This document shows, in pieces, positions 45,258 to 56,658 of a stretch of 64,000 nt of DNA. Origin of the DNA: Natrinema zhouii (GTDB lineage Archaea > Halobacteriota > Halobacteria > Halobacteriales > Natrialbaceae). Position 1 is the first letter of the stretch; each line of letters begins with the position of its first letter. A program made the translations under genes and the position numbers. Under the pieces are notes generated by a model. The model worked only from the letters and a program-made list of their open reading frames with translations. It searched no databases and was not told the DNA's origin. The stretch covers positions 3,286,001 through 3,350,000 of the forward strand of contig NZ_CP059154.1 in assembly GCF_013456555.2 (NCBI RefSeq), in the 5' to 3' direction.

Positions 45258-46373
45258 ATGTCACGAAAGGACACGATTCCCGTCACCGTCGTCAGCGGCT
45301 ATCTCGGTGCGGGAAAGACGACGCTGATCAATCACGTGCTGTCGAATCCGGGCGACCGACGGGTGGCGGTGCTCGTCAACGACATGGGCGAGGTGAACGT
45401 CGACGCGGAACTGATCGCACGAGAGAACGACGACGAGGGAATCGTGGACCTCTCGAACGGCTGTATCTGCTGTCGGTTACAGGGCGACCTGCTCGAGGAG
45501 GCAGCGCAACTGGCAGAGAGCAGAGCGTTCGACTACCTGCTGGTCGAGTCGTCGGGGATCAGCGAACCGATTCCCGTCGCGCAGGTGTTCACCGAAGGAA
45601 CGGACGCCAGTGACGTGGACCCGACGACGCTGTTTCGGCTAGATACGATGGTGACCGTCCTCGATACGTACGGGTTCTGGAAGGAGTTCGACTCCGGGGC
45701 GCAGCTACCGGAAGGTGCCCAACCCGACGAGGACCGACCGTTGAGCGAAGTTCTCGTCGAGGGAATTGAGTTCTGCGACGTCCTGCTGCTCAACAAGGCC
45801 GATATGGTTCCCGACGATGTCCTTGAGGGGATCGAATCGGTCATCGAGACCCTCCAATCGCGGGCGAAACGGCTTCGAACGACCTACTGCGAGGTAGATC
45901 CGGACGTCATTCTCGACACCGGTCGATTCGACTTCGAGACGGCGAAGCGCTCCCAGGGGTGGAAACGCCACCTGCGCGGGGAGGGCCACGACCACGAGGC
46001 GCACACTCACGACGAGGAGCGACGCGCCGCCGAGCGCCACGGCGTCTCCTCGTTCGTCTTCCGGTCCGACCGACCGTTCCACCCGGAGCGACTCGCGGCC
46101 TGGCTCGAGGACTGGGACGGATCGATCGTCCGCGCCAAGGGGGTCTGTCACGTCGCGAACCGCGAGGAGGTGATCGGCGTCAGTCAGGCCGGGCCGTCCG
46201 TCAGGGCCGGTCCGATCGGCGAGTGGCGGCCGGACGACGACCGTCGTACGCAACTGGTGTTCATCGGCCGAGAAATGAACGAGGAACGAATTCGCGAGGA
46301 ACTCGAGGCGTGCGTACTCGACGGCGACGAGACGGAGGAAACGGAAGCGGTGGCCGATCCGTTCCCGCTGTAG
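45258..46373 (+). CDS. CobW/COG0523-family metallochaperone GTPase
   Basis: The 371-residue GTPase has the P-loop GYLGAGKTT (residues 14-22), the metal motif CICC (about 69-72) of the CxCC class, and NKAD for guanine. A His-rich stretch (about 242-253, GHDHEAHTHDEE) probably binds metal, and residues about 255-350 form the CobW C-terminal domain. COG0523 proteins supply zinc or cobalt to target enzymes. The target may be a zinc enzyme nearby such as the alcohol dehydrogenase at 46918, but this is inference. Confidence 0.92.
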   Translation: MSRKDTIPVTVVSGYLGAGKTTLINHVLSNPGDRRVAVLVNDMGEVNVDAELIARENDDEGIVDLSNGCICCRLQGDLLEEAAQLAESRAFDYLLVESSGISEPIPVAQVFTEGTDASDVDPTTLFRLDTMVTVLDTYGFWKEFDSGAQLPEGAQPDEDRPLSEVLVEGIEFCDVLLLNKADMVPDDVLEGIESVIETLQSRAKRLRTTYCEVDPDVILDTGRFDFETAKRSQGWKRHLRGEGHDHEAHTHDEERRAAERHGVSSFVFRSDRPFHPERLAAWLEDWDGSIVRAKGVCHVANREEVIGVSQAGPSVRAGPIGEWRPDDDRRTQLVFIGREMNEERIREELEACVLDGDETEETEAVADPFPL

Positions 46374-46917: not shown

Positions 46918-48084
46918 CTATGGCTCGAGCAAGACTTTAATGACGCCTTCCTCGCGTTCGTCGAACTTCTCGTACATCTCCGGCGCGCGGTCGAGGTCGA
47001 CGCGGTGGGAGACGACCCAGCTGGGGTCGGCGCGCCCCTCGATGATCATGTCTCGTAGCTCTCGATTGTACTCCTTGACGTTCGTCTGCCCGGTACCCAA
47101 CTTCAATCCCTTTTCGAAGGCCTTGCCGAAGTCGATGCCGAGACGGCCCTGTGCCGCCATCTCGTCGGGCGCACCGGGGTCCGACGGGACGTACAGTCCC
47201 GGAATCCCGAGTGCGCCGGTCGGTCGGACGGTCTGGATGAGTTGATTGAGCACGACCGCGGGGTTTTCGCGGGCCGGATCGTAGGCGTCGTCAGTCGGAT
47301 CCGTCTCGGGGTCGATCGCCTGATAGCCCACCGCGTCGACGCCGTTGTCGACGCCCCCGCCGTGCAGGTCTTTGATCTGCTCGACCGGATCGCTCTCCTC
47401 GAAGTTGATCGGACGCGCGTCACAGTGGTCCTCGGCTAACTCGAGGCGGCTCTCGACGCGGTCGACGATGTAAATTTCCGACGCCCCCTGAATCTTGGCG
47501 CTATAGGCGGCCATCAGGCCGACGGGACCGGCTCCGAAGATCGCGATCGATTCGCCGGGTTTGAGGTTCGCGAGTCGGGTACCGTGCCACCCCGTCGGGA
47601 AGATGTCCGCGAGGAGCGCGAAGGAGTCCTCGTGCTCGTCACCCTCCGGTAGCTTCAGCGCGTTGAAGTCGGCGTACGGAACCCGGAGTTTCTCGGCCTG
47701 GCCGCCCTTGTACGGCCCCATCGCGACGTACCCGTACGCACCACCGGCGAAGCCGGGGTTGACGTTGGTACAGAACCCGGTGTAGCCGTTCTCACAGTTC
47801 CGGCAGAACCCGCAGGCCACGTTGAACGGCATCACGACCCGGTCGCCCTCCTCGAGCGACGTGACGGCATCGCCGGTCTCGATCACGTTCCCCATGTTCT
47901 CGTGACCGAAGACGATCCCCGGGTCGGCCGCGGTTCGTCCCTCGTACATGTGGAGGTCCGAGCCACAGATGCAGGTCGTCGTAATGTCAACGATGATGTC
48001 GTTCTCGTGTTCGATCTCGGGTTCGTCGACTTGCTCGACGGCCACGTCGTGCGGTCCCTGGTATACGACGGCGTCCATTGACAT
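46918..48084 (-). CDS. Zinc alcohol dehydrogenase, glutathione-independent formaldehyde dehydrogenase type
   Basis: The 388-residue enzyme has the zinc-dependent MDR layout: catalytic zinc ligands in CICGSDLHMYEGR and GHENMG, a structural zinc site (CGFCRNCENGYTGFC), and the NAD-binding GAGPVGLMAAYSAKIQGA. The segments PFNVACGFCRNC, GGAYGYV, PYADFNALKLPEG and PTGWHG match the P. putida type glutathione-independent formaldehyde dehydrogenase rather than common alcohol dehydrogenases. It would oxidise formaldehyde to formate with NAD. It diverges from the HbpS-like gene. Confidence 0.88.
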   Translation of the reverse strand: MSMDAVVYQGPHDVAVEQVDEPEIEHENDIIVDITTTCICGSDLHMYEGRTAADPGIVFGHENMGNVIETGDAVTSLEEGDRVVMPFNVACGFCRNCENGYTGFCTNVNPGFAGGAYGYVAMGPYKGGQAEKLRVPYADFNALKLPEGDEHEDSFALLADIFPTGWHGTRLANLKPGESIAIFGAGPVGLMAAYSAKIQGASEIYIVDRVESRLELAEDHCDARPINFEESDPVEQIKDLHGGGVDNGVDAVGYQAIDPETDPTDDAYDPARENPAVVLNQLIQTVRPTGALGIPGLYVPSDPGAPDEMAAQGRLGIDFGKAFEKGLKLGTGQTNVKEYNRELRDMIIEGRADPSWVVSHRVDLDRAPEMYEKFDEREEGVIKVLLEP

Positions 48085-48278
48085 TTGATATCAAGCCTCG
48101 GTGAACGGACCACAAGCACTGTTGTAAATGTTCGTGCGAACACTAACAGTACTCACAAATTCCACGTTTTATGAGTGTGAATAGCCATATTAAGTGAAAC
48201 GTACAGGTGAGTGTGCCAGATATATGAGTTTTTTCACAGAGGGTGTTTATAGCGCTCTAGAGTGTGGGAAAAACCCGC
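48085..48278. promoter_or_regulatory. Divergent regulatory region with two palindromes
   Basis: This AT-rich region separates the formaldehyde dehydrogenase and HbpS-like genes. It contains a 14-base inverted repeat (TGTTCG-TG-CGAACA, 48129-48142) and a perfect 10-base palindrome (TTGATATCAA, 48085-48094) adjoining the dehydrogenase start. TTTATA at 48246-48251, 28-33 bases upstream of the HbpS start, is a likely TATA box. The inverted repeat may be a regulator site for both genes. Confidence 0.45.
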
Positions 48279-48698
48279 ATGGTTGACACAGTACGTCTCG
48301 AAACGGCGAAGGAGATCATCGACGCAGCCGAACAGCGAGCCCAAGAGATCGACAATCCCATGGTGATCACGGTCGCGAATTCCGAAGGAAACCTCGTCGC
48401 CCAACACCGGATGGACGGCGCGTGGCTCGCGTCGGTCGACATTTCGCGGAACAAAGCCTACACGGCGGCCGCCCTGGATATGCCGACGGACGAACTGGCC
48501 GATCCAACCCGGCCGGGCGAATCGCTGTACGGTCTGCAGAACACCAATCAGGGACGGATGGTCATCTTCGGCGGCGGCTACCCGCTGATGCGAGACGGTG
48601 ACGTCGTCGGGTCGATCGGTGTGAGCGGGGGAGCGGTCGAGCAGGACATGGACGTCGCGGAATCCGGCGTCGACAGATTCGACGAACTCTCCTCGTAA
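48279..48698 (+). CDS. HbpS/GlcG-like protein (DUF336)
   Basis: The 139-residue protein matches the GlcG/HbpS fold: LETAKEIIDAAEQRAQEIDNPMVITVANSEGNLVAQHRMDGAW, then FGGGYPLMRDGDVVGSIGVSGG. HbpS binds haem and senses redox stress in Streptomyces; DUF336 genes also occur beside PQQ alcohol dehydrogenase and glycolate oxidation genes in bacteria. Its place between the formaldehyde dehydrogenase and the PQQ dehydrogenase operon supports such a link, but its role here is inferred. Confidence 0.88.
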   Translation: MVDTVRLETAKEIIDAAEQRAQEIDNPMVITVANSEGNLVAQHRMDGAWLASVDISRNKAYTAAALDMPTDELADPTRPGESLYGLQNTNQGRMVIFGGGYPLMRDGDVVGSIGVSGGAVEQDMDVAESGVDRFDELSS

Positions 48699-49105: not shown

Positions 49106-50410
49106 TCAGTCGCCGGTCGTTTCGCCACCCCCTCCGCTGACGGTAATCTCACCGACCGCATCGAGTTGCGATTGGTCGAGGTAGACGCCCATCTCTTCAT
49201 TGGCGACGAACTCGACGCTTTGGGTCGCACCTTCCTCGTCAGTGAAGTCCGACCGGACGTACGTGTTCCACTGGTTCGTCTCACCGCCGCTGGCGATTGC
49301 GAAATTGTGACCCGGGAGGGGTTCGTACGTTCTGCTCTCCGCCTCCGGCTGGTGGCGACCGATCGCGTTCTCCCACTCGACCGCGTAGGTTTCACCCGCC
49401 TCGAGTTCGAGCGTCGGGTTCGTCTCGTCGGCGATCGAGTCGGGCGATTGGCCGACCCACTGGCCCTCCTCGAGTTGCATCGAGTAGGTCTCGGTCGGGT
49501 CGCCGGGTTCGATGGCCGATAGCGTCGCGACGAACTCTCTGTCGCTGCCATCGATCGTCACCGTGTCCGTAATCCGTTCGTGGCCGTAGGTCCAGATCTC
49601 GACGTCGTACTCGCCGTCCTCGAGCATGTCGAAGCGGGCGACCGCCGGCGGGTCTTCCTGCTCTCCGCCTCCGTTGTCTTGCGCTTCGCCTCCGTCACTC
49701 TGATCGTCATCTGTCTCCGCAGTTTGGTTCGCTTCCGGCGTCGTCTCTTCCGCTTCCTCCTCCGCACCCATCGCTCGATCCGGATCCGTCTCTTCTGCTT
49801 CCGATTCCTCCGTTTGCTCTTCGGACGGGCTCGGCCGCGCGATGACGTTGGAGAAGGAATGGTGGTCCCCGACGAACACCTCTGCGCCGAGCGGGTCGCC
49901 GTTCTCGTCTTCGACTCGCACCCGTAGCTCGTGGACTTCGTCCGCGTCGACGAGTTCGACCGGGCCGCGCATCTGGACCGGGTGCGGGACGCAGTAATAC
50001 TCCGACATTCCCTCTTCAGCGGTGAACGTGAGGGAGGTGGACTCGCCTTGCTCTTCGACGAAGTCCGTCGATTCGATCACCTCGCCGTCTTCGTCCGCGA
50101 GGGTGAAGTTGTGGCGTGAGCCATCGCCGTTGGTCCAGACGATTTCGTGTTCTTCGCCTTCGATCAGTCGCAGCGTCGGGTTCGATTGACCGTCGACTTC
50201 CGCGGGTGCGACACCGACCCAGCCGCCGACGATGCCGAGCAGCGAGAGCGTTCGCCCCTCGCCGTCGTTCTGCGTGGCCGGGAGCGGGAAGTCGAGCTCG
50301 TCGCGGTATGCGCCTGCGGTGCCGGCCATCGCAGCCGTTCCCGTGAGCGCAGCCGTCCCCTTTAGCACGCCGCGACGTGAAACGTCACGTGAGCGTTGTT
50401 CGTTCGCCAT
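49106..50410 (-). CDS. Tat-exported tandem cupredoxin, second domain copper-less
   Basis: The 434-residue protein has a Tat signal (SRRGVLKG at 11-18). Residues 55-155 form a halocyanin-like cupredoxin with copper ligands H100, C140, H143 and M147. Residues 315-425 repeat this fold (WVGQSPDSIADETNPTLELEAGE resembles WVGVAPAEVDGQSNPTLRLIEGE), keeping H368 in GHNF, but Leu411 replaces the Cys. An acidic, Glu/Gln-rich insert (194-254) splits a beta-rich middle domain. It is the third gene of the PQQ operon, 34 bases after the dehydrogenase, and probably its electron acceptor. Confidence 0.85.
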   Translation of the reverse strand: MANEQRSRDVSRRGVLKGTAALTGTAAMAGTAGAYRDELDFPLPATQNDGEGRTLSLLGIVGGWVGVAPAEVDGQSNPTLRLIEGEEHEIVWTNGDGSRHNFTLADEDGEVIESTDFVEEQGESTSLTFTAEEGMSEYYCVPHPVQMRGPVELVDADEVHELRVRVEDENGDPLGAEVFVGDHHSFSNVIARPSPSEEQTEESEAEETDPDRAMGAEEEAEETTPEANQTAETDDDQSDGGEAQDNGGGEQEDPPAVARFDMLEDGEYDVEIWTYGHERITDTVTIDGSDREFVATLSAIEPGDPTETYSMQLEEGQWVGQSPDSIADETNPTLELEAGETYAVEWENAIGRHQPEAESRTYEPLPGHNFAIASGGETNQWNTYVRSDFTDEEGATQSVEFVANEEMGVYLDQSQLDAVGEITVSGGGGETTGD

Positions 50411-50444: not shown

Positions 50445-52154
50445 TCACGCATCCATCGAGAACACGGCGAGCGTGTCGCCGCGTGGTCCCTGTCGGAGCC
50501 AGCCGCTGCCGCCGACCTGCACGGCGACGTACTGCTTCTCTTCGCCCGGGTCGTACCAGCTCATCGGCGAGGCGCTGATCGGCACGTCGAACTCGTGCTC
50601 CCAGAGGCGCTCGCCGCTCTCGCCGTCGTAGGCGACGAAATTACCGTTCTGGGTGCCGTTAAACACGAGTCCGGTCGCGGTCGACAGCGACCCGCCCCAC
50701 ATGTAGTGGTCGTCCTCGCTCTCGATCCACTCGCGCCAGACGCGCTCGCCCGTCGCCGGATCGACCGCGGCGAACGCGGTGATGTTCTCGTTCCACTCGT
50801 CGGGGAACTCCTCGGCCGGGTCGGAGAGATCGCCGCCCCAGTAGGGGTTGCCCTCGCTGTACTCCTCGTAGCGCCACATCAGGTCCTGCGGGAAGTTCTG
50901 GTGGACGACGTACACGTATCCGGTTTCCGGGTTGTACGACGGCGGCTGCCAGTCGTTGCCCCCCGGCGCGCCTGGGACGAACGGGATCCGCTCGTCCGAG
51001 CTGAGGTGGGGAATCATCTCCCACATATTGATGTGCTGGCAGATCTCCTCGCTGCGCTCGTGGAGCTGGCCGGACTCGGCGTCCATCATGTACACCCAGC
51101 CGGTCTTGTCCGAGCCGACGACCATCTCCGACGGTCCGTCGTCGACGTCTACATCGCGAATCAGCACCCGCGGCGCGACCGCGTCGTAGTCCCAGACGTC
51201 GTGCGGGCTACTCTGGAATCCCCACTCCCACTCGCCGCTCTCGAGGTCCAGCGAGATGGTTCCGCAGGTGGGGAAGTTCGGTCCCGGCCGTACCGTGCCG
51301 TCGAAGTCCGGCCCGGGATTCGCGACCGCCGTGTAGAGGACCTCGCGATCCTCGTCGATCGTCGGCGTCATCCAGGTCGTCCCACAGCCGTGCTCTCGAC
51401 TCGCGCCGACCCACTCGTCTTCCGGGAGCGTCTCGGTCTGCCACTGAATCTCACCGCTCTCGGCGTCGAGCGCGGCCATGAACCCGAGCACGCCGTACTC
51501 GCCGCCGGCGCTGCCCGTGTAAATCGTCCCGTCACGGATCACCGGTGCCCACGTCGCGGAGTACCCCTCTTCGTGGTCGGCCGTGCTCGTGTACCACTCC
51601 TCCTCGCCGGTGTACCGATTCAGCGCGACGACGCCCGAGTCGAGCGTCGTCATGTACACCTTGTCGCCGTAGACGGCGGCCCCGCGGTTGTTGTCGTCAC
51701 AACACAGTTCGACCCCGATCGGGACCGCGTAGGTGTAGCTCCAGAGGACCTCTCCCTCGCGGGGGTCGATCGCCTTCATGTGGTTGGGTCCGTTCGTCTG
51801 GTACATGACCGGCGGATCGCCCGGAACCACGATGGGTGTCCCCTCCATGCTCGAGCCCGTCCCGACCGACAGCTCGTACTCGAGCTCGAGGTCGCCGACG
51901 TTCTCGGGGGTGATGACGTCGGCGGGCGTGGCCCGGTGCTGTTCGTAGTTCCCGCCGTACATGAGCCACGACTCGGGATCGTCCCCGGTGTTGCTCAGCA
52001 TCTCCTGATCGACGTCGCCTTCCGGAATTCGGTCAGTATCGTGCTGTTCGGTGACCGAATCGTCGGGGCCCCCGACCAGTGTATAGCCGTCTTCGATTTC
52101 TCGCAGTTCGATGTTACGTGCGGCCTGAACGGCCCTGTCGTTGCGTAGTGCCAT
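50445..52154 (-). CDS. PQQ-dependent alcohol dehydrogenase, lanthanide-type ligands
   Basis: The 569-residue beta-propeller enzyme oxidises an alcohol with pyrroloquinoline quinone. It has the vicinal cysteines C151-C152 (ELCCDDNNRG) that define this class, and tryptophan-docking repeats. Metal/PQQ ligands read E219 (GGEYG), N279 (ANPGP), D322 (WDYD, catalytic base) and D324. Asp two residues after the catalytic Asp marks lanthanide enzymes (XoxF, ExaF, PedH); calcium enzymes have Ala or Ser there. No signal peptide is visible, which is odd. AGGTGA, overlapping the previous stop, is its ribosome binding site. Methanol, ethanol or other substrates are possible. Confidence 0.9.
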   Translation of the reverse strand: MALRNDRAVQAARNIELREIEDGYTLVGGPDDSVTEQHDTDRIPEGDVDQEMLSNTGDDPESWLMYGGNYEQHRATPADVITPENVGDLELEYELSVGTGSSMEGTPIVVPGDPPVMYQTNGPNHMKAIDPREGEVLWSYTYAVPIGVELCCDDNNRGAAVYGDKVYMTTLDSGVVALNRYTGEEEWYTSTADHEEGYSATWAPVIRDGTIYTGSAGGEYGVLGFMAALDAESGEIQWQTETLPEDEWVGASREHGCGTTWMTPTIDEDREVLYTAVANPGPDFDGTVRPGPNFPTCGTISLDLESGEWEWGFQSSPHDVWDYDAVAPRVLIRDVDVDDGPSEMVVGSDKTGWVYMMDAESGQLHERSEEICQHINMWEMIPHLSSDERIPFVPGAPGGNDWQPPSYNPETGYVYVVHQNFPQDLMWRYEEYSEGNPYWGGDLSDPAEEFPDEWNENITAFAAVDPATGERVWREWIESEDDHYMWGGSLSTATGLVFNGTQNGNFVAYDGESGERLWEHEFDVPISASPMSWYDPGEEKQYVAVQVGGSGWLRQGPRGDTLAVFSMDA

Positions 52155-52160
52155 ACGGAA

Positions 52161-53063
52161 TCACCTCAGTTTGCTCGGAGCGCGCATGTCGTCCCTGATG
52201 TAGAAGACGGTGTGCAGCAACTCCTCCTGGCTGACGATCTGGACGGCCGAGCCCGCGGTGAGCGCGGCGGTCAACTGTTCGTCCGTGAACTGCCCGTCCC
52301 CGGCGAGGTCGCACGCAGCGGTCGCCGTCACGAACAGCCCGCCCAGCATCGCCTTGACGTATCTGACCGCATCGTCGAGGATCTCGTCGGTGATCATCAC
52401 CTCGTTCTGCCAGAGGTGTCTGTCGAGCCCGCGGATCCACAGCAGCGCCCCGCCCATCGCGCGCTGGTGGAGCGGCGGGATGGTCTCCGTCTCGAACTCG
52501 ACGCCGTCCGGAATCTGGTTCGACGGGACCCAGCGAGCGAGCCGTTCGTCGTTGTTCGCTACGTCGAGCAGCAGTGCCGTCTTCTCCGACTCGTCGAACC
52601 CGACGTCGTCGAGCGACGACGACAGGGGGTCCGCGAGAAGGAGTTCGCGCGCCGTGGTCTCGATGTGGTCCGCCGTGAACCGCGGCAGGTTCTCGTCGAG
52701 ACTCTCGAAGAAGTCCACCTCGAGCAGGTGGTCGTACAGTCGCCAGCCGGGTGCTGCGACGTCCGTATACAGTCCGCTCGGTTCGTCCGGGACGCCGACA
52801 TCGCGGACGTCCAGTAACCCGCTTATTTCGTCCGCGATGTTCTCGCGTTCTCGTTCGAGCAACTCGTGATCGAGTCGCCCGGCAAGGTCGGCCCGGATCG
52901 CTTCGCCTCGAGAGGCGAACGCCGAGTCGGACCGCGGTTCGATCTGTCCGGCGAGTAGCTCCCACGTGACCGCCCCGTCCCCTGGGGTGTCGACGCCGAG
53001 AGCCGTCGCCAGATCGCGTTGTTCCGCGACCGTCATATCTGACGCAGTGGATATTTGTGTCAT
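52161..53063 (-). CDS. Unknown protein coupled to the PQQ dehydrogenase
   Basis: The 300-residue protein is mainly helical and acidic, with no signal peptide or cofactor motif. Conserved-looking segments include GWRLYDHLLEVDFFESL, PPLHQRAMGGALLWIRGLDRHLWQNEV and VQIVSQEELLHTVFYIRDDMR. It is the first gene of the operon. Its TGA is separated by only two codons (TTC CGT) from the ATG of the PQQ dehydrogenase in the same frame, so the two form one continuous frame with a single stop. It may be a chaperone or subunit for the dehydrogenase. A 15-base longer start (53078) exists. Confidence 0.8.
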   Translation of the reverse strand: MTQISTASDMTVAEQRDLATALGVDTPGDGAVTWELLAGQIEPRSDSAFASRGEAIRADLAGRLDHELLERERENIADEISGLLDVRDVGVPDEPSGLYTDVAAPGWRLYDHLLEVDFFESLDENLPRFTADHIETTARELLLADPLSSSLDDVGFDESEKTALLLDVANNDERLARWVPSNQIPDGVEFETETIPPLHQRAMGGALLWIRGLDRHLWQNEVMITDEILDDAVRYVKAMLGGLFVTATAACDLAGDGQFTDEQLTAALTAGSAVQIVSQEELLHTVFYIRDDMRAPSKLR

Positions 53064-53427: not shown

Positions 53428-54285
53428 GTGATCGATCTTCCCGACGTCCTCGCGCGACTCGAGCAGCCCGCGTACACCGGTGAAAACCGGTGTCTCCCGT
53501 GTACGGCGGTCAACGTCGTCATTGCGATCACTCTCGCGATCGGGATCGGTGTCGCGACCACTGCGCTCGTCGGCGCATTCGCGCTCACCGTCTTTCTGGG
53601 ACTCATCCGCCTCCGTGGCTATCTCGTTCCGGGGACCCCGACGCTCACCCGACGGTATCTTCCGGATCGCGTTCTCGCCATGTTTGGCAAATCCCCATCG
53701 GACACCCTAACGGTCGAGACGGTCTCGCCCGACACTCTCGAGAGCGTTCTAACTGCCACCACCGTTGCAACTGAGCAAGGGGACGGGATCCGACTGACAC
53801 CGTCCTTTCGGCAGCAGTGGAACGAGCGACTATCGCGCGACGGCGACCCCGAATCGCGTTCGGACGCCGTTCGCTCGATGCTCGGCGCGGACGAAATCAG
53901 GCGACTCGGCGACGCGTCGTACGTTCTCGACGGTCGAAAGCAGGTCCGATGGGAGTCGACCGCGGCGCTCGCGGCGGACGTGGCCGCGGCGGCCGAACTC
54001 CGAACCCGGCTCGAGGGATGGGACGCACTCGAGGTCGACGAGCGTCGCGACCTCCTGACGGGACTGCGACTGCTTCGAGACCGCTGTCCGGCCTGCGACA
54101 GTGGGGTGACGACGACAGCTGAACGCCTCGAGCACTGCTGTCGGCGGCCCCGCGTCGGGATTCGATCCGTCTGCGAGGCGTGTGATCGGCCGCTGGTCGA
54201 GGTCGTTGTCACCGAGTCGAGCGCCGACCCGTGGCTCGAGTTGGCCGGGGTGACAGCCGCGAACGACTCGGCGTCCGACCCGTAG
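53428..54285 (+). CDS. Haloarchaeal membrane protein with zinc ribbon
   Basis: The 285-residue protein starts at a GTG (MIDLPDVLARLEQPAYTGENRCLPC), has two hydrophobic helices (about 27-60), an uncharacterised middle and a C-terminal zinc ribbon with CPAC, CC and CEAC (about 213-250). It is a recognisable conserved haloarchaeal type without known function. It converges with the formate dehydrogenase gene and diverges from the PQQ operon. Confidence 0.75.
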   Translation: MIDLPDVLARLEQPAYTGENRCLPCTAVNVVIAITLAIGIGVATTALVGAFALTVFLGLIRLRGYLVPGTPTLTRRYLPDRVLAMFGKSPSDTLTVETVSPDTLESVLTATTVATEQGDGIRLTPSFRQQWNERLSRDGDPESRSDAVRSMLGADEIRRLGDASYVLDGRKQVRWESTAALAADVAAAAELRTRLEGWDALEVDERRDLLTGLRLLRDRCPACDSGVTTTAERLEHCCRRPRVGIRSVCEACDRPLVEVVVTESSADPWLELAGVTAANDSASDP

Positions 54286-54311: not shown

Positions 54312-56498
54312 TCAGTCGTCGCCGGCCGCCGGATCCGCGGTTTCGCCGAGAGGTTCGATATCGACGTCGATCTCCGCGGCGGCGGCCTTGTACTCGGGGA
54401 TCTTCGAGCGCTCGTCGAGCACGTGGTTCGTGAGCTTGTTCGCCGAGGCGGCCGCGAAGTGCGGCGTCGTCCAGACGACCCCCTCCTTGGTGTCCTCGGT
54501 GACCTGCGCCTCGAGCGTGATCTCGCCCCGCCTCGAGCGCAGGCGGACGTACTCGCCGTCCTCGATGCCGTAGCGCTCGGCGTCGGCCGGATGCACGTCG
54601 ACGAAGTTCTCCGGGGTCTGCTTGTTGAGCGTCGGCGATCGCGTGCTCATCGTCCCGGTGTTGTAGTGTTCCTCGAGGCGCGCGGTCGTGAGGATCAGCG
54701 GGTACTCGTCGTCGGGCGTCTCGGCCGGCGGCTGGTGGGCGACGCCCTCGATCTGGCCGAGACCGCTCTCGGTGTCGAACTCGTGTTCGTAGAGGAACGG
54801 GTCGCCCTCGTCGCCGGGTTCGTAGCAGGGCCAGTGGAGTCCCTCCTCGCCCAGCAGGTCGTAGGTCATCCCGTGGTAGCTGGGACAGACCTGGCGGAGT
54901 TCCTCGAAGATTTCCTCGGGATCCTCGAAGTCGAAGCCCGAATCGAAGAGTCGCGTCCCGATCTCGCTCAGAATCTCCCGGTCGTGCTTCGTGTTCTCGT
55001 GGACTTTTCCGACGCCGCGCATCCGCTGGACGCGGCGGTCGGTGTTGGTGACGGTGCCGCCGCGCTCGGCCCAGGTCGTCGCCGGGAGGATGACGTCGGC
55101 GTACTCCGCGGTTTCGGTCGGGAAGATGTCCTGGACGACCGTGAACTCGAGGTCCGCGAGCCGTTCGGCGACGGCGTTGGCGTCGGGTTCGCTCATCACG
55201 GGGTTCTCGCCCATGACATAGAGACCCTTGATCGAGTCGCCGGCCTCGTAGGAGATTTCGACGTTCGTGAGTCCGGGCTCGTCCGGAATCTCGAAGCCCC
55301 AGACCTCCTCGACGGACTCGCGGGCCTCGTCGTCGTCGACCAGCTGATAGCCCGGCAGCACGTTCGGCATCGCGCCGACGTCACAGGTCCCCTGGACGTT
55401 GTTCTGCCCGCGCAGCGGGTTGACGCCCGTACCGGGTCGCCCGAGGTTACCCGTGATCAGCGCCAGGTTGATCTCGTTTTGCACGTTGTCGACGCCGCAG
55501 GCGTGCTGGCTCATCCCCATGCCGGTGAAGATGGCCGCGTTGTCGGCCGTCGCGTACTTTTCGGCGGCCAGTTCGATTGCTTCCAGTGGCACGCCACACT
55601 CCTCGGCCGCGGCTTCCTTGTCGAAGTCCTCGAGCGTCTCGACGAGGTGGTTGAATCCCTCGGTTCGCTCCTCGATGAATTCCTCGTCGATCCAGCCCTC
55701 GTCGGGGTTTGCCTCGTGCTTCTCGAGGATCGTCTTCAGGACGATGTTGAGCAGCGGGATGTCCGTTCCCGGGTTCAGCTGCAGGTGCTGGTGACGGTCG
55801 GTGTCGTCGATCTGGAACGACCGTGTCGTCTTGTTCGCGTGCGGATCGACCTGAATGACGGTCGCGCCCTCGAGGACGGCCTGTCGGAAGTACTGGCTGT
55901 TGGCGATCGGATGTTGCTCGCCGGGGTTCGCCCCCTGGATCCAGAACACGTCGGCCTCCTCGCGGAGGTCCCGCATGCTGTTGGTCATCGCTCCCGCGCC
56001 CAGACTCGTCCGGAGCGCCCAGACTGTCGAGGCGTGACACATTCGCGTGCAGTTGTCGACGTTGTTGGTGCCGTAGCGCCGCGCCAGCTTCTGGAGGAGG
56101 TAGTTCTCCTCGTTCATCACCTTCGAGGAGCCGAAAAAGCCCATCGCGTCCGGGCCGTACTCCTCGCGAATCCGCTCGAGTTCGCCGACGATATACTCGT
56201 AGGCCTCCTCCCAGGAGGCCTCGCGGAACTCGCTATCGCCGAACGACGTTCGGCTGCCAGACGAGCGTTGCTCGTCGCTGTCCTCCTTGATCAGCGGCTC
56301 GGTGAGTCGGTCCTCGTGGTCGACGACCTCCGTCGCCGCACCGCCTTTGATGCAGATGCGCCCCTCGTTGACCGGGGCGTCACCCCACGGCATGAACTGC
56401 ACGTCACCGGGCTCCTCGCCCGGCTGTACCTTGATTCCACACCCAACGCCACAGTACGGACAGATCGTCTTGATTGGCTCCTGTTGATCGCTGGACAT
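54312..56498 (-). CDS. fdhF: Formate dehydrogenase alpha subunit (Mo/W-bisMGD)
   Basis: The 728-residue enzyme oxidises formate to CO2. It has an N-terminal iron-sulfur motif (C13, C16, C20, C49), the molybdenum or tungsten ligand Cys154 in TRMCHAS (Cys, not selenocysteine), and a C-terminal molybdopterin-binding domain (TTARLEEHYNTGTMSTRSP). Its length fits the FdhF family (about 715). Residues 74-90 (SDEQRSSGSRTSFGDSE) are an insertion encoded by palindromes. No FdhB-like electron partner is adjacent, so its acceptor is unknown. An upstream ATG would add eight residues. Confidence 0.93.
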   Translation of the reverse strand: MSSDQQEPIKTICPYCGVGCGIKVQPGEEPGDVQFMPWGDAPVNEGRICIKGGAATEVVDHEDRLTEPLIKEDSDEQRSSGSRTSFGDSEFREASWEEAYEYIVGELERIREEYGPDAMGFFGSSKVMNEENYLLQKLARRYGTNNVDNCTRMCHASTVWALRTSLGAGAMTNSMRDLREEADVFWIQGANPGEQHPIANSQYFRQAVLEGATVIQVDPHANKTTRSFQIDDTDRHQHLQLNPGTDIPLLNIVLKTILEKHEANPDEGWIDEEFIEERTEGFNHLVETLEDFDKEAAAEECGVPLEAIELAAEKYATADNAAIFTGMGMSQHACGVDNVQNEINLALITGNLGRPGTGVNPLRGQNNVQGTCDVGAMPNVLPGYQLVDDDEARESVEEVWGFEIPDEPGLTNVEISYEAGDSIKGLYVMGENPVMSEPDANAVAERLADLEFTVVQDIFPTETAEYADVILPATTWAERGGTVTNTDRRVQRMRGVGKVHENTKHDREILSEIGTRLFDSGFDFEDPEEIFEELRQVCPSYHGMTYDLLGEEGLHWPCYEPGDEGDPFLYEHEFDTESGLGQIEGVAHQPPAETPDDEYPLILTTARLEEHYNTGTMSTRSPTLNKQTPENFVDVHPADAERYGIEDGEYVRLRSRRGEITLEAQVTEDTKEGVVWTTPHFAAASANKLTNHVLDERSKIPEYKAAAAEIDVDIEPLGETADPAAGDD
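56238..56276 (-). repeat. In-frame palindrome cassette inside fdhF
   Basis: Two inverted repeats with three-base loops are adjacent: 7-bp arms around GAC (56238-56254) and 7-bp arms around GTT (56260-56276). They encode the linker from about residue 75 to 87 and keep the frame. They are of the same class as the cassette in lutBA, and one arm pair shares the motif GAAC-GAC-GTTC. Confidence 0.7.
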
Positions 56499-56658
56499 CT
56501 GTAGTGCCTCCAGGTATCGCACCCGTTAGACGCATCTCACTATCCGAGCGTGCATGAGGTTTTCTACCATGCAGGCAGTAAGTTGCGGCGAGCGACGGAT
56601 CAAACGGAAGTGCTCGGCAGCGAAACGCTGACGGTCGCACGTGCGAAACTATGACACG

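Follow-up and report, generated by a model that had tools for sequence, protein, structure and literature searches.

The window, a stretch of 64,000 nucleotides of the Natrinema zhouii genome (NZ_CP059154.1, positions 3,286,001 to 3,350,000), encodes a PQQ-dependent dehydrogenase that may, judged from its sequence, be a rare-earth enzyme in an archaeal group for which we found none reported. Of the readings considered for this protein, lanthanide dependence is the most probable, and we put it at roughly 55%. Across the Halobacteria the enzyme is strictly paired with a helical partner protein encoded just upstream. The two genes are:

50445..52154, (-), PQQ-dependent dehydrogenase of 569 amino acids, 8-bladed propeller family, with a lanthanide-type ligand set and without a signal peptide
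52161..53063, (-), obligate partner of 300 amino acids, all-helical, without a known family, ending 6 bases before the dehydrogenase ATG

To our knowledge, every enzyme with demonstrated lanthanide use is a PQQ dehydrogenase, and the work on them has been done in bacteria. Searches of open-access papers for haloarchaea with lanthanides, XoxF or PQQ yielded only incidental mentions, and these searches uncovered no haloarchaeal clade that combines a cysteine pair, an obligate partner and the absence of both a signal peptide and PqqC. Marine Thaumarchaea are the only archaea named with related genes in a 2024 review (PMC11845868). If the dehydrogenase binds lanthanides, rare-earth biology would reach cultured haloarchaea, where direct tests are feasible, since several of the carriers are type strains that can be grown. 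The enzyme would also raise a puzzle over its cofactor, as PqqC was not found in the class that harbors it, and its strictly coupled partner might reveal how a quinoprotein is assembled without a periplasm.

Metal and cofactor site of the dehydrogenase

A preliminary description of this DNA had placed the reading frame, four metal ligands and a vicinal cysteine pair, and each was found where it had been placed. The codons of the ligands, of the cysteine pair and of one divergent position, all assigned by alignment, are as follows:

51498..51500, (-), E219, corresponding to XoxF Glu172
51318..51320, (-), N279, corresponding to XoxF Asn256
51189..51191, (-), D322, the catalytic aspartate, corresponding to XoxF Asp299
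51183..51185, (-), D324, the extra aspartate, corresponding to XoxF Asp301
51699..51704, (-), vicinal cysteine pair C151-C152
51105..51107, (-), K350, replacing XoxF Arg326; invariant in alignment A2 and common to the nearest bacterial clade and Gcd

The reference sequences in the site alignment were XoxF (4mae/6oc5), PedH (6zcw), MxaF (4tqo), ExaA (1flg) and E. coli Gcd. As had been proposed, the four ligands fell on those of XoxF, and the same four occur in PedH; the match of D324 to Asp301 also bears out, at the level of sequence, its expected position at the metal. The site residues of the dehydrogenase were E104, the cysteine pair, R157, G218-E219, W261, N279, D322-Y-D324, K350 and W486, with E104, R157, G218 and W261 as further matching cofactor-site positions. 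Taken together, the four ligands, the cysteine pair, R157, G218 and W261 agree with XoxF and PedH and not with MxaF, ExaA or Gcd. MxaF has WDYA, and an alanine before the glutamate, and ExaA has WDFS, which confirmed the alanine and serine predicted for these enzymes at the position of D324. A glycine instead of an alanine preceding the glutamate ligand is regarded as a mark of the lanthanide type (PMC11845868), and G218 is such a glycine. The extra aspartate has been reported as essential to lanthanide coordination in bacteria (PMC8546591; PMC11996626). By alignment, the ligand set of the dehydrogenase is thus of the lanthanide type.

All 47 distinct haloarchaeal homologues extracted carried the four ligands, D324 included, and this invariance argues that the set did not arise by chance. 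The cysteine pair was kept in 45 of the 47, and most haloarchaeal paralogues without the pair retained all four ligands. Two divergent haloarchaeal PQQ dehydrogenase paralogues (L076 and L077) kept D-x-D and had lost the glutamate ligand and the cysteine pair. The earlier claim of a lanthanide-type metal site in an archaeon was partly supported: the complete ligand set is present in an alcohol-dehydrogenase-type quinoprotein, and use of a lanthanide as the metal is likely. By itself D-x-D is no proof of lanthanide use, since it occurs in L076 and L077 without the glutamate, and also in E. coli Gcd, where WDMD is present without glutamate and asparagine at the ligand positions and without the cysteine pair. 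Because Gcd lacks these two ligands, the caveat that glucose dehydrogenases share this motif has no force against the complete set.

These observations also bear on a PQQ alcohol dehydrogenase that would use Ca2+ (or Mg2+) in the cell, with the extra aspartate ancestral and structural in the clade; in brines, calcium far exceeds lanthanides. Such an enzyme would be in line with the WDMD of Gcd, for which an ocean survey predicts merely facultative lanthanide use (PMC11996626), with the D-x-D of L076 and L077, and with the Na/Ca-exchanger-type antiporters that adjoin the enzyme in some relatives. However, E/N/D/D with glycine before the glutamate is the XoxF/PedH pattern, incomplete in Gcd, and the aligned calcium enzymes of the family have alanine or serine at D324. 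We consider calcium use possible, if somewhat doubtful. Lanthanide dependence, our preferred reading, has its own points against it. Besides the insufficiency of D-x-D, the arginine of XoxF and PedH is replaced by the invariant K350, and the NPGP motif has a proline where XoxF carries threonine or serine; the moderately confident active site of the structural model, the missing signal peptide and the lack of a lanthanide-specific gene, described below, count on the same side.

Family, fold and phylogenetic placement

Profile searches supported assignment of the protein to the PQQ dehydrogenase superfamily and, within it, to the methanol/ethanol (alcohol dehydrogenase) type. The Pfam PQQ family PF01011 matched at 170.7 bits (cut-off 26.7), which places the protein in the superfamily. 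The best NCBIfam match was TIGR03075 (methanol/ethanol) at 370.2 bits, under the cut-off of 480.05, a shortfall that a new, outlying clade would be expected to show. TIGR04528 (acido-empty-quinoprotein) came second with 275.2 bits, below its cut-off of 650, and TIGR03074 (glucose/quinate) reached 119 bits against a cut-off of 832.65. This poor score and the missing glutamate and asparagine of Gcd led us to reject a glucose dehydrogenase identity, in agreement with the class favored in the preliminary description.

In a sequence search of the PDB the best matches were PedH, ExaA and XoxF, with PedH at the top. The AF2 model of the dehydrogenase (pLDDT 80.5) matched solved quinoprotein enzymes with E-values of 1e-37 to 1e-28, and its closest solved folds were Eu-MDH 6fkw, PedH 6zcv/6zcw, XoxF 4mae and XoxF 6dam; these best-matching structures are those of lanthanide enzymes. 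Over the active-site stretches the confidence was only moderate (about 69–85 in 10-residue blocks), so the metal geometry of the model is unproven, and we infer it from the alignment.

A maximum-likelihood tree placed the haloarchaeal proteins in one clade (support 100/99), apart from the clades of XoxF/MxaF (100/100) and PedH/ExaA (100/100); the root of the tree was unsure. Burkholderiales and Alloyangia enzymes sharing the lysine formed a separate clade (99/98). The dehydrogenase thus grouped with neither calcium-type nor glucose enzymes, the placement of Gcd being unsure, and the phylogeny that the preliminary description had called for did not go against its claim. Membership in XoxF was rejected, based on the position outside the XoxF/MxaF clade and on K350 in place of arginine. 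We know of no characterized member of the nearest clades.

The enzyme shares with XoxF (4mae, 6oc5, 6dam, 7o6z) the four ligands, the cysteine pair, WDYD and the glycine before the glutamate, which is an aspartate in XoxF1 7o6z (PMC8546591). It differs in its lysine, its clade, a sequence identity of only about 24–28% (structural alignment) and a locus that has a cupredoxin and no adjacent cytochrome. With PedH/ExaF-type enzymes (6zcv, 6zcw) it has in common the ligands, the cysteine pair and the tryptophan under PQQ, whereas the separate clade, the lysine, the missing signal peptide, the obligate helical partner and the archaeal host without PqqC set it apart. The nearest bacterial relatives, at 34–36% identity, were K-type quinoproteins of Paraburkholderia, Caballeronia, Ideonella and Alloyangia (L059, L064-L066). 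These have the cysteine pair, GGEYG, NPSPD and GKTG in the same way, but WDLD in place of WDYD; L059 has a signal-like N-terminal extension, and cytochrome c adjoins in L064 and L066. E. coli Gcd, which has a membrane N-terminus, is alike in the W-D-x-D and K-T-G motifs and unlike in its missing ligands and cysteine pair.

The haloarchaeal enzyme is not the first archaeal case of the Asp-Tyr-Asp (DYD) motif, which is already known from heterotrophic marine Thaumarchaea, where 4 of 21 families of PQQ dehydrogenases carry it (PMC7300363). In contrast to the haloarchaeal proteins, the thaumarchaeal DYD enzymes all lack the Cys-Cys pair and most have signal peptides or membrane segments, and a PQQ synthase is reported to be encoded in their genomes; a blue copper protein has been proposed as a possible acceptor (PMC7300363).

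Helical partner, export and source of PQQ

The dehydrogenase was carried by 51 of 292 Halobacteria genomes, with the nearest named homologues, 86–93% identical, in Natrialba, Natrinema, Natronorubrum and Haloterrigena. The partner gene was present in exactly the same 51 genomes and lay immediately upstream on the same strand for all 78 dehydrogenase matches, 7–570 bp apart as matched. Two of 79 partner matches, both in genome G241, had no dehydrogenase among the best four candidates per genome, and in G193 both genes were fragmentary, side by side. G241 had six copies of the partner gene and G191 four. Among 295 genomes across the phylum no partner was found outside Halobacteria, all five carriers being Natrialbaceae, and none was found on bacterial plasmids.

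The model of the partner was all-helical and confident (pLDDT 90.3). The protein matched nothing in Pfam, nor any PDB entry by sequence or, at E<=0.001, by fold, and a PqqC/TenA-like or other known fold was rejected on these grounds. It would be needed by the dehydrogenase as a chaperone, an assembly factor or a subunit.

No signal peptide was found on the dehydrogenase in 40 homologues, and the first 45 residues contained no hydrophobic stretch. The N-terminus was conserved, and most orthologues had an in-frame stop shortly before it; in the window an in-frame stop lies two codons before the ATG, and a missed upstream start with a signal peptide was therefore rejected. Of the partners in alignment A1, 5/34 had a Tat-like RRxFLK motif and a hydrophobic start, which the partner in the window lacks. 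Lacking a signal peptide, the dehydrogenase would leave the cell already folded, bound to a partner that carries a Tat signal; a cytosolic enzyme is the alternative.

PqqC was absent from all 292 Halobacteria genomes at the curated cut-off, in a search that recovered the positive control on S. meliloti pSymB at 5e-129. PqqE and PqqB gave only matches below the cut-off in the source genome. The absence of PqqC suggests that PQQ would be scavenged or made by a non-standard route. E. coli Gcd is an apo-enzyme that is filled with PQQ from outside.

The same absence raises the alternative that the protein is an "empty" quinoprotein and has given up PQQ, a state that the name of TIGR04528 proposes for acidobacterial homologues, and the 275-bit match to that family points the same way. 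The match to TIGR03075 is higher, both being below cut-off, and scavenging in the manner of Gcd could supply the cofactor. Unlike what the name of acido-empty-quinoprotein group A implies, the compared cofactor and metal positions of the haloarchaeal enzyme are intact and invariant or nearly so, which makes an emptied site quite improbable. In the preferred reading, E219, N279, D322 and D324 would hold the active-site metal in the manner of XoxF and PedH, and this metal is most likely a light lanthanide.

Neighboring genes and a second cassette

The genes around the pair in the window are:

46918..48084, (-), zinc alcohol dehydrogenase of the glutathione-independent formaldehyde dehydrogenase type, with a score under the TIGR02819 cut-off; recurrent neighbor
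48264..48698, (+), HbpS/GlcG-family protein; recurrent neighbor
49106..50410, (-), Tat-signal cupredoxin of halocyanin/plastocyanin type, directly downstream in the closest Natrialbaceae loci
53428..54285, (+), protein without a Pfam family, a relative of which is annotated "Rab5-interacting"; recurrent neighbor
54312..56522, (-), formate dehydrogenase alpha (TIGR01591, 722.6 bits, cut-off 666); recurrent neighbor

The cupredoxin combines a Tat signal with a His...Cys-His-Met copper pattern and is the probable electron acceptor of the dehydrogenase. In the Natrinema lineage the neighbors included formate dehydrogenase, MobA, the formaldehyde-dehydrogenase-type zinc enzyme and the HbpS protein, a neighborhood that would fit oxidation of a one-carbon alcohol to CO2. 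The dehydrogenase would convert a small alcohol to the aldehyde and pass the electrons to the adjoining exported cupredoxin, and in this lineage the aldehyde might be processed further by the products of the formaldehyde-dehydrogenase-type and formate dehydrogenase genes.

In other haloarchaeal families the neighbors differed and comprised a CDC48-type AAA ATPase, ferredoxin, VOC and cupin proteins, NMT1-type ABC transporters, aldehyde ferredoxin oxidoreductase and xanthine-dehydrogenase-type proteins. A sugar or other polyol would be compatible with this variety, as with the lysine common to Gcd; the formate dehydrogenase neighborhood would then be incidental, and either metal could serve. 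We consider such a substrate unlikely, because the methanol/ethanol model far outscores the other family models (119 bits for glucose/quinate), the protein has the vicinal cysteine pair and the E/N ligands, and a formate dehydrogenase gene lies close by in the window as well as in L033, L034, L037, L053 and L047. A small alcohol thus stays the preferred substrate.

A second complete cassette was found in the source genome (L086:2076-11242; G000 C1:535075-544241). It contained genes for an amphi-Trp protein, an HTH regulator, two Na/Ca-exchanger-type antiporters, a long Tat cupredoxin, a PQQ dehydrogenase that lacks the cysteine pair and retains the four ligands, and a partner that has a Tat-like RRxFLK motif and a hydrophobic start. 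The antiporters of the source genome adjoin this second dehydrogenase/partner cassette at C1:536290-544172. Paired antiporters of this type recurred in L032, L046, L062 and L070, frequently accompanied by an HTH regulator and an amphi-Trp protein; a gene specific to lanthanides was not found, as the antiporters are of Na/Ca-exchanger type only. A broader scheme, which we advance only tentatively, is that haloarchaea run a distinct lanthanide-dependent alcohol oxidation, in which a signal-less dehydrogenase would be loaded with imported PQQ and lanthanide with help from an obligatory chaperone or subunit that has a novel fold, be exported in the folded state by a Tat-carrying partner, pass electrons to a cupredoxin and be served by metal-handling Na/Ca-exchanger-like antiporters.

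Components of NMT1/THI5-type ABC transporters were encoded near the dehydrogenase in L040:4765-6870, L062:12906-13710 and L039:12163-13062, and such a transporter is a candidate PQQ importer in PQQ auxotrophs. A CDC48-family AAA ATPase was encoded near the PQQ dehydrogenase in L062:2684-4903, L039:1189-3411 and L069:4629-6806, as well as in L044, L045 and L050-L052, and brings to mind MoxR, the AAA ATPase encoded in bacterial operons for methanol dehydrogenase. A CobW/ZigA-type metallochaperone GTPase was encoded near the cluster at 45258-46373 of the window, and also in L032, L046 and L054.
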